Below, in pieces: positions 2 through 51,477 of a DNA stretch of 55,583 bases. Origin of the DNA: Nitrospirota bacterium (GTDB lineage: Bacteria; Nitrospirota; Thermodesulfovibrionia; Thermodesulfovibrionales; JdFR-85); NCBI GenBank assembly GCA_015492645.1, contig WGER01000085.1:1-55583 (forward strand). Direction: 5' to 3'. Both the position numbers and the translations under genes were made by a program. Numbering within the stretch: position 1 is the first letter of the stretch; every line of letters begins with the position of its first letter. Below the pieces are notes generated by a model. That model did no database searches. It saw only the letters and a program-made list of their open reading frames with translations, and had not been told where the DNA came from.

Positions 2-358
2 TATAGGACCCGTGCATTGATAGAGATAGTGGTGAAGACCTCGGTTTATACCTTCAACACACCTCTCAGTGTGGCCATCATGGCCTGTTTCTACCCCTAC
101 CTGAGGAGCAGACACAGGAGGCTTTACAGGGTGTATCTGGAGGCATTACTTTTACTGCTTCTGGTTCACCTTCTTTATGTCTTTTCACTGGAGGGAGAGT
201 CAGTCAGAAGCGGGATGGTCCGCCTGGGATATAAGAGCCGTGAGTTTATGAGCATATTTTTCTGGCAGTTTCTCTGGCAGTTCACCGACAACATGATTGT
301 CAGGTTTGAGCCCTTCCTGCTCGGTGCCTATCTTTACCTGAGGAGACCCCTGAAGTGA
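2..358 (+). CDS. C-terminal part of a membrane protein (possibly exosortase-associated)
   Basis: The reading frame is open to the left edge of the window, so this is probably the end of a longer gene; the TTG at 17 and later internal codons are not convincing starts. The visible ~118 residues contain a hydrophobic segment rich in Leu (about residues 45-60 of the visible part) and a C-terminal stretch with aromatic and hydrophobic residues (FFWQFLWQF, then EPFLLGAYLYLRR), so it is an inner-membrane protein. The next gene encodes a secreted protein with an IPTL-CTERM-like tail, whose processing normally needs exosortase H. Small membrane proteins accompany that exosortase in many genomes and this could be one, but this is inferred from context and loose resemblance only. 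I cannot name it firmly. Confidence 0.5.
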   Translation, partial: YRTRALIEIVVKTSVYTFNTPLSVAIMACFYPYLRSRHRRLYRVYLEALLLLLLVHLLYVFSLEGESVRSGMVRLGYKSREFMSIFFWQFLWQFTDNMIVRFEPFLLGAYLYLRRPLK

Positions 359-635
359 GCCTCAACTGTCAACCGAGAGATTTGCAAAAAACAGAGCAAT
401 ATTCACATGATCCTCTCACGAATAGGTGACTGATGTGAAAACCTGAGAAGAATGACCAACGAAGGTGCAGTTTTTTTATTATACACTTTTGTATCTACAG
501 GAATTCCCTTATAAAATACGGGTTTTCCCTGATAGACATTTACCGTCAAATCAAATAAAATAGAGAGTGTTCAAGAAAATGAAATATCTCCTTGGCGAAC
601 CACGGGATATTCCGGGTTAAAGAGGAGGTTTGAGG
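359..635. other. Intergenic region upstream of the surface protein
   Basis: About 275 bases without a gene. It is AT-rich, with a weak promoter-like pair (TTGTAT at 489-494 and TATAAA at 510-515, spacing only 15). I see no strong terminator or conserved RNA. The ribosome binding site AGGAGG at 623-628 serves the next gene. Confidence 0.4.
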
Positions 636-3182
636 ATGGGTAAAGTGAGGTTTCTATTATTACTGCTTTTTTACTTTTTCCATTTCTTTCTTCCTTCACT
701 TCTGGGTGCACAGGTATTCAATGTCTCAACCCCTGCGGAGTTTCAGGATGCCCTTACGACTGCAGAGACAAACGGTGAGGACGATGTGATCAATGTCCAG
801 GCTGACATGAACATAACCTCCACACTCACCTACGAAGGCAAGGAGGGGCACACCCTTACAATCAACGGCAATGGCCACACCCTTGACGGTGGAGGAAGCG
901 TGCGGATAATGCGGATCAGTACCTCCATATGGCTTGCTGACGACTCAAACTCAGACATAACCGTCCAGAACCTCACCTTCAGGAATGGCAATGTCTCAGG
1001 CAGTGGTGGAGGGCTTTATGTTTGGACAGATTCTGCTGACATTGCCATTAAAGACTGCACCTTCATTGGCAACTCTGCTACTAGTGATGGTGGTGGCGTT
1101 AAGGTGAGTACATCTTCAGGCACAATCACGCTCACGAACAACACATTCAGTGGAAACTCGGCTGATATTGATGGTGGTGGTGCTGAGGTAGTGACACTTT
1201 CAGGCACAGCCATACTCACGAACAACACCTTCATTGGCAACTCCGCTGGTGATGATGGTGGTGGCGCTGATGTGGGGACATCTTCAGGCACAGTCACGCT
1301 CACGAACAACACCTTCAGTGGTAATTCTGCTGGTGATGATGGTGGTGGCGCTGATGTGAGCCCAGACACAGGCACAGCCATACTCACGAACAACACCTTC
1401 AGTGGCAATTCTGCTGGTAATAATGGCGGTGGTGCAAGAGTGTGGCCATACTTTGACCAGGCAACAGCCAACATCTACAACAACATCATCTGGAGCAACA
1501 CCGCAAGTGCAGGTGGAAACGACGGGGATGACCTCTATGTATGGTCTGACGTGGATGGTAACGGCACGGGCTGTACCATAAACCTCTACAACAACGATCT
1601 TGGCCCTAACAGTAACTTCACCACAGGCCAGTCAGAAGACCTCGTCATAACAGACACAGACAACTACTCCTATGGTGGAAACATAACAAACGACCCCAAT
1701 CTTGTTGACCCTGCAAATGGAGACTTCCACCTTCAGGCTGGTTCACCAGCCATAGATGCAGGCCTCAATGGTGCTCCTGGAATTCCTTCAACGGACTTTG
1801 AGGGGGACCCGAGGGTAATCAACGGCACGGTTGACATTGGTGCGGATGAGTATGGTGCGGGCCCTCCAGCACATACCCTTACAGTCACGAAGACAGGCAC
1901 AGGAAGTGGTACAGTAACGAGCAATCCTGCGGGGATAGACTGTGGAGGGACATGCTCTGCACAGTTTGCAGACGGCACTGCAGTAACTCTTACAGCCACG
2001 GCAGATCCAGGCTCTGTGTTCAGTGGCTGGGCAGGAGACTGCCAGGGCTGCGGGCAAAATGCCCAGTGCCAGATAACCATGGACTCTGACAAGCAGTGCA
2101 CCGCAACATTTGATTTGACCCATACCGTAACGCCTTCTGTCGGTTCAGGGCAGGGAAGCATTGACCCGTCCACGCCTCAGACGGTGAACCACAACGCAAC
2201 GGTTCAATTCACACTCACACCTGCTCAGTGCTACCACATAGACAGCGTGGGTGGTACCTGCGGTGGCACCTTAAACGGCAATGTATTTACCACCAATCCT
2301 GTAACGCAGGACTGCACAGTGGTGGCAAACTTTGCTATCAACACCTATACCATCACGGCAACGGCGGGTCCAGGTGGAAGCATCAATCCGTCAGGCAATG
2401 TAGTGGTCAACTGTGGTGCCGATCAGACCTTTACCATAATCCCTGATGCAGGATACAGGATAGAGGATGTGGTGGTTGACGGGCAATCAGTGGGGGCAGT
2501 AAACAGTTATACCTTTACAGGCGTAACCTCTAACCACACAATTCAAGCAAGTTTCGGTCAAGACGACGGAGACGGGGTTGATGCTTCTGTAGAGGACGGT
2601 GCACCCAACGGAGGAGACGGAAACGCAGACGGAGTGCCTGACAGGCTGCAGAGCCATGTAACCTCACTGCCATCGGCAACAGGGCGGGGTTACATTACCG
2701 TGGAACTTACAGGAGGGTGTTCTCAGAATGAAAATGTCAGGACTCAGGCAGAAGACCCAGATGATCCTGGTTATACCTATCCTTTCGGGCTTGTAGGTTT
2801 TGAACTTCCCTGCAGTTCTGCCAGGGTGAGGGTGTATTTTTACGGGAGCGATGAGCTGGTGGGCTACATTTACAGAAAGTATGGGCCAACCACGCCTGGA
2901 GACCCTACGACCACCACATGGTACACCATGCCAGGAGTAACCTTTGGCACGGCAAATATAGCAGGAAACACTATTGCCTATGCAGAATTTACTCTGACAG
3001 ACGGACAGATGGGTGATGACACAGGAGCAGACGGTAGAATTGTAGACCAGGGGGGACCTGGGCAGCCTGTGGCTATAACAGCTGTACCCACCATGACCGA
3101 ATGGGGGATGATAATATTCATGGTGCTTGCCGGATTTACTGCGGTGTATTATCTGAGAGGAAGGGTTCAGGAGAGACTGTAA
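636..3182 (+). CDS. Secreted beta-helix surface protein with IPTL-CTERM-like sorting signal
   Basis: An 848-aa secreted protein. The start is ATG 636, seven bases after AGGAGG (623-628); the upstream TTG at 630 is too close to that site. Residues 1-26 form a signal peptide with a Leu/Phe-rich core ending LLGAQ. Residues ~100-285 are a right-handed beta-helix region; five 28-residue repeats (NNTFSGNSA...DGGGA) occupy residues ~142-281. Three Cys-bearing 'bacterial repeat'/InlB-B-like modules follow (~412-645, with FSGWAGDC in the first), then a choice-of-anchor-U-like domain (~680-815). The last ~30 residues (PTMTEWGMI, a hydrophobic helix, then basic [10 protein letters not shown]) match the IPTL-CTERM sorting pattern. 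Such proteins are normally processed by exosortase H and displayed on the outer surface. A rho-independent terminator follows, so it is a single-gene unit. Ligand and role are unknown. Confidence 0.85.
1059..1478 (+). repeat. Five in-frame 84-bp tandem repeats
   Basis: Units begin at 1059, 1143, 1227, 1311 and 1395, exactly 84 bp apart, each encoding a T-F-(S/I)-G-N-S-A...G-G-G-A block of 28 residues. Nucleotide similarity between units is high (for example AACAACACCTTCA recurs), which suggests recent duplication or gene conversion, so the copy number may vary between strains. Confidence 0.9.
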
Positions 3183-3841: not shown

Positions 3842-3901
3842 TGAGGTCTTTGCCTTCTAAAAGGTAGTGTCTTTTCTTCTTGAGGGGTTACCCTACATTG
3901 C

Positions 3902-3920
3902 CATTAGAAATACGATTAAA
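3902..3920 (+). repeat. Solo end of the intergenic repeat family
   Basis: CATTAGAAATACGATTAAAG resembles the outer end of the larger repeats at 27576-27871 (TTAGAAATATGAGTAAAAGG) and 48631-48928 (minus strand, ATTAGAAAT...ACGATTAAAAGG). It may be a fragment left by the same element family. Confidence 0.4.
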
Positions 3921-3945
3921 GTTATTGGGAATTTATAATTTTCTC

Positions 3946-27493: not shown

Positions 27494-27575
27494 ACTGAAA
27501 CTCTTACACTATACAATTAAAAATCCTTTCATGAGGCCTTAGGACCCTTCACTATCAAGGTGGTCCGGATTTGTG

Positions 27576-27871
27576 TTAGAAATATGAGTAAAAGGTGGCA
27601 GAAGGTTGCCGAAAAAGGGGGCGGAAATACTTTGATTTTTCGGGACAGAAAACTGAACTAATGCGACAGTCCCTCCCTACACCCTCTCTCTTCAAGGGGT
27701 GGAGGTGAAAGATGAAGGTTGTTACATTGGGCAAGGCACCTGTGGTGTCGCTTAACTGAAGTCGGAAGTCAGAGGTCTGAACTCAGAGGATCTTCTGACC
27801 TCTGATTTCCGACTTCTGATTTCTGTCTTTCGGCAAGGGTTCTCAGGAAAATCCTGGATTTTCGGGGGGAG
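27576..27871 (+). repeat. Intergenic repeat, copy A, with long imperfect palindrome
   Basis: A ~295-base non-coding element filling most of the 27494-27998 gap. It matches the inverted copy at 48631-48928: shared blocks include AATGCGACAG, GTTGTTACATTGGG and a long GAAGTCGGAAGTCAGAGG-type stretch. Its core is a palindrome with arms 27758-27777 and 27797-27816 (19 of 20 positions pair). No open reading frame is conserved between copies, so it looks like a non-autonomous mobile or structural repeat. Confidence 0.8.
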
Positions 27872-27948
27872 TTCCTCTGTCTCTGCCTGCTTACTATAGT
27901 ATTGGCCGAATCTGGGTTTTTTGGCTCTGGATGGCAGTGGTAATATAT

Positions 27949-27957
27949 TGATAAAAT
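27949..27957 (+). promoter_or_regulatory. Putative extended -10 promoter of the nitroreductase gene
   Basis: TGATAAAAT, the same motif seen before hicB and the efflux operon, ~42 bases before ATG 27999. No proper -35. Confidence 0.4.
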
Positions 27958-29192: not shown

Positions 29193-29340
29193 ACCATAAG
29201 AATGGATCCCAATGCTACACAAACTGGACAAACTCTTCTATAGATCTCCTCGTTGGTCGTGGAAGAAGGCTGACGACGCTTTTTTGTTCTATAATATTGT
29301 CAAGGACATACTATTCCCAGAATTATTCCATGTTTATAAA

Positions 29341-29356
29341 GTTTTGACCGAAAGTC
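29341..29356 (+). repeat. Second copy of GTTTTGACCGAAAGTC
   Basis: Matches 28691-28707 apart from one T. It lies ~30 bases before the FAH-family start codon. Confidence 0.4.
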
Positions 29357-29386
29357 GAACGGCAAATCTGGAAAAGGAGGAAGGCC

Positions 29387-48537: not shown

Positions 48538-48630
48538 GATTTTATAATAGGGACTCTGGTGAGTCAGGAGTCAAGAGTCCACTGAAGGTAGTTGTCTCAT
48601 TTTGAGGTCCTCAATCTACGTGGAGGGGGT

Positions 48631-48928
48631 CCTGCCCGGGGAAAATCTCCGATCTTCCTGGGAGCCCTCTGCCGAAAGACAGAAATCAGAAGTCGGAAAT
48701 CAGAAGATCCTCTGAGTTCAGACCTCTGACTTCCGACTTCTGTCCATCGACACCTCAAGGGCATTACCCAATGTAACAACCCTTATCTTTCACCCCACCC
48801 CTTCCTCTTGAAGGGGAGGGTAGAAGGGGCTGTCGCATTAATTCAATTTTCTGCCTCGAAAATCAAAGATTTTCGGAGCCCCCATTTTGAGACCCCCGCG
48901 CCTTTTAATCGTATTTTTAATTTCTAAT
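48631..48928 (-). repeat. Intergenic repeat, copy B (inverted relative to copy A)
   Basis: On the minus strand this matches 27576-27871: ATTAGAAAT...ACGATTAAAAGG, AATTAATGCGACAG, GTTGTTACATTGGG and the GAAGTCGGAAGTCAGAGG block occur in the same order. The palindrome has arms 48687-48704 and 48725-48742 (17 of 18 pair). CATTTTGAG occurs at both 48598-48606 and 48883-48891, possibly by chance or as target duplication. It fills most of the 440-base gap between the methyltransferase and RHH genes. Confidence 0.8.
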
Positions 48929-48944
48929 GGCAAATCTGTGTGCT

Positions 48945-51110: not shown

Positions 51111-51477
51111 AACCAGTAATGTACGTAAAGGAGTTGTAATAGGTCTTTACTTTAACTTGGAATTGCCCGTGGTCTTGCCACGGGGTAGTTCATTAAAGTC
51201 ATTGCTGTCCAAAATAACCTGCGATAGTATACACAGGCGGTGTACCGAATAGCAGAGGTCGGATATCAGAGGTCAGAAGTCGGATTTTTCCTTAGTTTTC
51301 TGACCCCTGACTTCAGACTTCTGACCTCTGTTTTTAGGCATACCGCCTGTGCCTCAATCCTATTTTGGACAGATGTGGATTAAAGTCTAACAGCAATCTA
51401 CGGATCGGTGGGGTCCTTGCCTGTAAGCACCCGAACTTAGTATATTTACTAATCCTCTATAAGGGAAGGAGAGGTAA
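51111..51477. other. Intergenic region between nth and the amidase gene
   Basis: Holds the 166-base inverted-repeat element at 51206-51371, flanked by ATTAAAGTC at 51192-51200 and 51379-51387. A possible promoter for the amidase gene lies at its right end (TTGCCT 51417-51422, TATATT 51441-51446). No RNA gene is seen. Confidence 0.5.
51205..51372. mobile_element. MITE-like nested inverted-repeat element (copy C)
   Basis: Terminal inverted repeats CTGTCCAAAATA (51205-51216) and TATTTTGGACAG (51361-51372) match perfectly. Inside are further inverted pairs: CACAGGCGGT with ACCGCCTGTG, and CAGAGGTCAGAAGTC (51267-51281) with GACTTCTGACCTCTG (51316-51330). The direct repeat ATTAAAGTC flanks both sides a few bases out. 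There is no coding capacity. The core resembles the palindrome of copies A and B. Confidence 0.7.

Follow-up and report, generated by a model that had tools for sequence, protein, structure and literature searches.

A family of probable IS1380-derived MITEs recurrently lying just upstream of promoter-like sites in a Nitrospirota genome and its relatives

The window, a stretch of 55,583 nucleotides from a genome of the order Thermodesulfovibrionales (contig WGER01000085.1, positions 1 to 55,583), encodes an ATP sulfurylase whose nearest named relative is that of Nitrospirae bacterium JdFR-85 (92% identity), contains no tRNA, and over its whole length gives 0 Rfam matches at gathering score. Within ORF 630-3182, matching Pfam Flg_new_2 and Pectate_lyase_5, 84-bp tandem repeats occupy positions 1058-1432. 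The repeats considered here, and a promoter-like site beside one of them, are as follows.

3891..3927, + strand: solo left-type end, CCCTACATTGCCATTAGAAATACG (end-motif scan)
27564..27916 (approximate), + strand: copy A, an IS1380-type MITE from end to end (ends and blastn)
27757..27819, + strand: central palindrome module nested in copy A, with degenerate 7-nt units inverted (GAAGTCG.../...CGACTTC) (folding; period 7/14 tandem repeats)
27931..27957, + strand: weak promoter-like ATGGCA / TAAAAT upstream of a nitroreductase gene (27996) (8/12 consensus positions)
~29336..29371, - strand: solo right-type end, AGTTTTGACCGAAAGTCGAACGGCAAATCTGG (end-motif scan)
48612..48940, - strand: copy B, same MITE family as A, inverted (blastn and end scan)
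~51157..51403, no strand assigned: third element, distinguished from A and B by its core (CTGTCCAAAATAACC...) and sharing their GAAGTC palindrome module (end scan; compare G000:C52:67112-67348)

A preliminary description of this DNA had recognized A and B as two copies of a repeat of about 295 bases, and the two are indeed alike over essentially the whole of that length (78% identity, query positions 17-304 of 331, E 7.5e-60, blastn against the genome itself). Both elements are real, but the limits proposed for them, 27576-27871 and 48631-48928, do not hold: A is longer, and B has its left end at 48940 and a decayed right end near 48612. Copy A begins with TCCGG-ATTTGTGTTAGA and finishes with GCTTACTATAGTATTGGCCGA..ATCTGGG, a right end that has lost part of the terminus and that by eye resembles other right ends minus a short internal deletion. 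The flanks of A and B are without clear target duplication. No ORF of at least 90 aa covers copy A, in keeping with the proposed absence of a conserved reading frame, and the solo end placed at 3902-3920 is genuine, with a fuller extent of 3891-3927. The inventory of two copies and one solo end was incomplete, having overlooked the third element, of which the right end lies at 51403 and the left end was assigned by eye, and the solo end near 29336-29371. The promoter-like site beside A begins 14 nt beyond its right end, and promoter scores beside the window elements are modest (8/12 for A, 7/12 for B and 9/12 for the third element).

The palindrome with arms of about 20 bp, previously considered a part of the repeat, is borne out by folding, but it constitutes a module in its own right, with solitary occurrences in other parts of the genome (blastn). 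Both copies fold strongly, as the earlier term 'structured' implied: copy A has a z of -5.6 as DNA (0/100 shuffles equally good) and -4.8 as RNA, and copy B a z of -5.8 as RNA. The same is true of the element cores, defined as the element minus 38 nt on each side; for 49 elements folded as DNA the median z is -4.2, with 36/49 below -2 versus 3/40 random 150-nt stretches. When copy A was compared with 40 relatives, only short, weak matches to the central palindrome were found, in 10/40 genomes, and the single genome of the same genus gave no blastn match. The ends of these elements are conserved while the interiors are unrelated between genera; the interiors vary by genus but are usually self-complementary. 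One palindrome, CATTGCGAGC...GCAATCTC, is present in MITEs of two end types (L407 in genome G063, L336-L345 in genome G066), and because it sits within both, interiors have seemingly been exchanged between families.

The window's own genome (G000, 2.43 Mb) gives 68 blastn matches to copy A at E<=10, many of them to the central palindrome alone, and 52 matches to copy B at E<=1. The preliminary description had allowed that further copies might be lacking and the likeness limited to the palindrome; instead, more long copies exist, on contig C29 (76% over query 6-312), on C5 (79% over query 53-304), and on C82, C16, C28, C68 and more. Read outward, the copies share a terminus, CCC-NN-A[A/T]TTGCCG[A/T]TAGA, inverted at both element ends. 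A 13-mer of this end, at up to 1 mismatch, is found 107 times in the genome versus 19 times for the reversed control, and an 18-mer 65 times versus 0. End pairs enclose 30 elements, at 49-511 bp motif to motif, in 243,577 bases of G000 that were chosen for their richness in elements. Direct repeats in the flanks score at least 5 for 12/30 of these elements, versus a permuted mean of 2.4 and a maximum of 8 (1000 permutations). When these 30 pairs are joined with 32 from seven other genomes (a few overlapping rows share one end), a perfect 5-bp duplication lies right at the ends in 10/62 pairs (permuted mean 0.28, maximum 2) and a perfect 6-bp duplication in 9/62 (permuted mean 0.20, maximum 3). 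The elements are therefore short, multicopy and devoid of a transposase gene, with terminal inverted repeats and a 5-6 bp target duplication (19/62 perfect), which are the properties of MITEs. The earlier suggestion of a non-autonomous element is upheld by the inverted termini, the target duplications, the many dispersed and gene-less copies, and an insertion sequence with the same ends in relatives. As judged from heuristic ORFs, 26/30 elements of G000 have predicted genes on both sides, 15/26 lie between divergent genes, and 23/30 overlap no ORF of at least 90 aa. Neither the same-genus genome nor JdFR-85 presents a clean empty site, each keeping the gene on a single side of every insertion compared. 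One pair of ends 1.15 kb apart on C16 was considered as an autonomous element of G000, and rejected, as it encloses a carbonic-anhydrase-like gene (by eye) and no transposase.

Within the order, 13/176 genomes carry at least 7 ends by the 18-mer motif, a cut for end-rich genomes that was chosen after the counts were known. Given with the reversed control in parentheses, these are G063 with 74 (1), G000 with 65 (0), G064 with 46 (0), G066 with 41 (2), G022 with 26 (1), G003 with 20 (1), G128 with 19 (0), G027 with 15 (0), G008 with 11 (1), G011 with 11 (0), G045 with 11 (1), G004 with 7 (0) and G035 with 7 (1). For the end-rich genomes, the end positions used are the first among the matches listed, and the ends were gathered by similarity or motif, not randomly. 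A transposase homologue (E<=1e-12) is encoded in 9/13 end-rich versus 16/162 other genomes (P 2.9e-6), and in 7/11 versus 16/162 with the two query genomes left out (P 7e-5); the end-rich genomes G003 and G004 have no transposase match at E<=0.01. A 2.7-kb end pair in G027 (L167, G027:C1:1045848-1048558), inside which an IS21-like gene pair is seen by eye, was likewise rejected as a candidate autonomous element, the IS21-like pair being taken as an insertion nested in a MITE of this family.

As to the transposase with matching ends that the preliminary description had envisaged, it is present in related genomes (L357, L397 and L400) and was not found in the window's own; ends shared with an autonomous transposon occur within the order, not inside G000. 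One example is a contig of G064, where a family end adjoins a truncated transposase gene, of which the 3' portion is present and matches IS1380 (NF033539, 149 bits). A search with this gene led to a complete example, L357 in G066, a genome from another family of the same order, in which an open transposase frame is accompanied by the two ends, CCCCTATTTTGCCGATAGAAAACC and CCCCTAAATTGCCGATAGGAAATT, separated by about 1.62 kb. The encoded protein of 427 aa matches the IS1380 profile NF033539 at 243 bits (cutoff 180) and Pfam DDE_Tnp_1_4 at 89.8 (cutoff 34.7); L357 itself displays no target duplication by eye. A distance of 111-118 nt separates the left end from the transposase start downstream of it in L357 (G066), L397 (G064), L400 (G128), and L403 and L404 (G045). 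L403 and L405, which are shortened and retain parts of the transposase gene, are intermediate between insertion sequence and MITE. The leader of the insertion sequence runs from a TATAAA-like box into a palindrome, TCACCCAATGGGTGA, followed by AAGGAGG and the start codon. Pieces of this leader are retained in MITEs of G000: one on C14 has a 32-nt match to it (81%, E 4e-4), and one on C31 a 43-nt match to the leader of the G000 IS1380 copy (72%). The leader palindrome in the form TCACC-N4-6-GGTGA is found 15 times in the 243,577 bases of G000 versus 0.6 expected from composition, a count affected by the enrichment of these stretches in elements, and 11/36 elements carry it at up to 1 mismatch, 8 of the 11 exactly. 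Because of these retained pieces, the MITEs would be deletion derivatives moved in trans.

The sole IS1380 match of G000 itself (C50:21556-22380) shares 40% identity with L357 over 275 aa and runs to the contig end; truncated in this way, it scores 166 bits to NF033539, below the cutoff of 180. Its left end, CCCAAAATCCGAAATAGGA, is unlike the MITE end, and a 15-nt match between the two, equalled in 1/500 shuffles, is only suggestive of homology. The simplest account would be that the matching transposase has been lost from G000 or resides in unassembled sequence. Directly upstream of the truncated copy, at G000:C50:21200-21375, lies an element sharing the core of the third element.

The position of the ends relative to promoters was assessed with a scan for TTGACA-16..18-TATAAT at 9/12 or better, which reports consensus matches and not mapped start sites. 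It was applied to 245 outward flanks from nine genomes, defined by the strict end motif in five and a looser one in four, after ends with less than 60 nt of flank and flanks with identical first 40 nt had been dropped. The start of a -35 box falls 8-19 nt beyond the end in 66/245 cases versus 4.9 in shuffles, while 20-110 nt from the end the count (33/245) matches the shuffles (31.6); the modal offsets of 13, 14 and 15 account for 17, 21 and 14 counts. The hexamers separately behave alike: among 241 ends, TTGACA at 5/6 or better is found at offsets 13, 14 and 15 in 21, 25 and 9, against a background of 1.47 for each offset, and TATAAT at 36, 37, 38 and 39 in 12, 21, 32 and 19 of 241 flanks (background about 3). 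In the 138 flanks without a -35-like hexamer the -10 box is nonetheless in place in 34, versus 9 and 2 in control windows, and therefore these sites are marked by the promoter rather than just by TTGACA. Per element, a promoter is in place at one end at least in 29/62 (15/30 in G000 and 14/32 elsewhere), versus 3, 1 and 2 of 60, 2/59 and 0/58 at five shifted positions; 33/62 elements have no promoter scoring 9/12 or better in place. The right ends of IS1380 copies in G064 follow suit, with 8/19 having a promoter in place versus 2, 1, 0 and 0 at shifts. An outward start codon lies no more than 400 nt away from 93 ends, most often at a distance of 50-59 nt (17/93).

No orientation bias, with one end type facing the promoter, was found in G000 (7/20 vs 11/40). 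In the MITEs of G066 (L341, L342, L345, L429-L430, L447-L450) a promoter is in place at one end in 2/3 and at the other in 1/13, small numbers that perhaps reflect oriented insertion. A smaller set of -35 boxes is seen closer in, at 4-7 nt, nearer to the ends than the main peak by roughly one turn of the helix (245 flanks). At many element-side promoters of G000, no more than about 6-12 nt separate the -10 box from the start codon and there is no Shine-Dalgarno sequence, as in leaderless transcripts. Several G000 loci share a motif, CTAATGCG(G), in the interval from the element end to the -35 box.

A second IS1380 group, with the end CCCAAATCCCGATATAGAA, is represented in 21/175 genomes of the order and absent from G000. 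Its ends have TTGACA at 5/6 or better at offset 13 in 14/62 cases, versus at most 2 at other offsets, and promoters at 9/12 or better in 21/62, 12 of the 21 at 13-14; several of its 12 pairs have 5-6-bp duplications by eye.

Overall, A and B are best viewed as old members of a MITE family with the origin and placement set out below, a reading (probability about 0.86) that draws on the ends, the target duplications, the copy number, an intact IS1380 with the same ends, the leader remnants and the promoter-relative placement, all of them established at the level of sequence. The family would have originated from an IS1380-family insertion sequence that lost internal DNA, and an IS1380 transposase recognizing the CCC-NN-A[A/T]TTGCCG[A/T]TAGA ends would have multiplied it in trans, inserting copies at sites some 13-15 nt before the -35 box of sigma70-type promoters and duplicating 5-6 bp of target each time, presumably by reading the promoters or the RNA polymerase bound to them. 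Because selection for mobility would act on the ends only, the interiors would have given way to DNA that is specific to each genus and mostly self-complementary.

The main competing argument is that the spacing stems from selection, not from targeting, with insertions occurring anywhere and survivors being found only just upstream of promoters. Survival bias is to be expected in small genomes, and the elements are mostly intergenic (23/30 overlap no ORF of at least 90 aa), but this process predicts a lower limit and not a narrow peak, while offsets 13-15 gather 52 counts and 20-110 are at background, and the second end type also peaks, at 13; we thus deem it unlikely. Somewhat more doubtful still is the possibility that the elements are domesticated regulatory modules, whose terminal repeat, some 60 nt ahead of the start site, would be the site of a host regulator spread by transposition. 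The fixed distance to promoters, the conserved terminal sequence and the operator-like palindrome TCACCCAATGGGTGA kept in some elements would suit such a role, but the transposase-linked IS ends in G064 share the placement, recognition by the transposase already accounts for the end sequence, and the spacing is common to two different end types.

A function residing in the hairpin, either as a structured RNA or as a REP/ERIC-like intergenic repeat, appears quite improbable: despite the strong folding of the cores (median z -4.2, 36/49 below -2 vs 3/40 controls), interiors are unrelated across genera while ends are conserved, target duplications are present, and Rfam offers no match. Structured RNA was accordingly rejected as the main reading, with 0 Rfam matches and no interior conserved across genera. 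As to the ends belonging to a Mutator-like (p-MULT) element, with a chance link to IS1380, an equal distance to the -35 box is described in the sections of PMC3942029 consulted, but in several genomes the ends are found on either side of IS1380 transposase genes, L357 matches IS1380 and no Mutator-type family in NCBIfam, and the duplications are of 5-6 bp, making this proposal scarcely credible.

With respect to known systems, the likeness to the IS1380 family, judging from the portions of the literature available, encompasses the transposase profile, a partner of about 1.6 kb, imperfect terminal repeats and 5-bp duplications (IS1247, a member, is listed at 1672 bp, IR 16/13 and DR 5 in Table 2 of PMC3281130), while the window elements differ in being gene-less MITEs. 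The transposable modules (TMos) of ISPme1 and ISEcp1, as presented in parts of PMC9330008, also have DNA beyond its own gene moved by an IS1380 transposase, but that DNA is adjacent, past one end, whereas here there are two true ends and a non-coding cargo. TIMEs and MITEPye1, MITEs of the Tn3 and IS1182 families (excerpts of PMC4133298 and PMC11578231), are likewise short and gene-less, with the ends of a known transposon family and foldable transcripts; they belong to other transposase families, have few copies, and in those excerpts no promoter-relative placement is mentioned. The closest parallel in placement is TnGBS, whose insertions fall 15-17 bp before the -35 box at sigmaA promoters (criterion 13-17 bp), and some insertion sequences of the ISKra4 group insert likewise, with promoters on both sides where the terminal repeats are close to symmetrical (relevant sections of PMC3942029). 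The ends studied here fall in the 13-17 bp range set for these TnGBS/ISLre2/ISKra4 elements, which have a Mutator-superfamily transposase, whereas the partner here is IS1380. Neither 'IS1380' nor 'MITE' occurs in the available text of PMC3942029, nor IS1380 in that of a review of prokaryotic MITEs (PMC10969869); the IS1380 parts seen of PMC3281130, PMC9330008 and PMC4133298 make no mention of placement upstream of -35 boxes; and the literature searched, accessible in part and covering few subscription journals, contains no report of IS1380 insertion upstream of promoters. As far as these searches go, the class of MITEs is known, while this family, its parent insertion sequence and its promoter-upstream placement are new.

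In conclusion, we lean toward the IS1380 transposases of this order being readers of promoters, perhaps by attaching, near position -50, to sigma70 RNA polymerase that is bound there. This habit would have evolved apart from that of TnGBS/ISKra4, and in each genome their MITEs would have put a changing, foldable spacer ahead of dozens of promoters. If true, unrelated DDE transposases would have converged on a common safe target for insertion, either the promoter or RNA polymerase. In a family of which one member, ISEcp1, spreads resistance genes (PMC9330008, in part), the manner in which a transposase sees a promoter would become directly testable with an enzyme of about 430 aa, and we would have an example of a MITE family whose ends outlast complete replacement of the interior.
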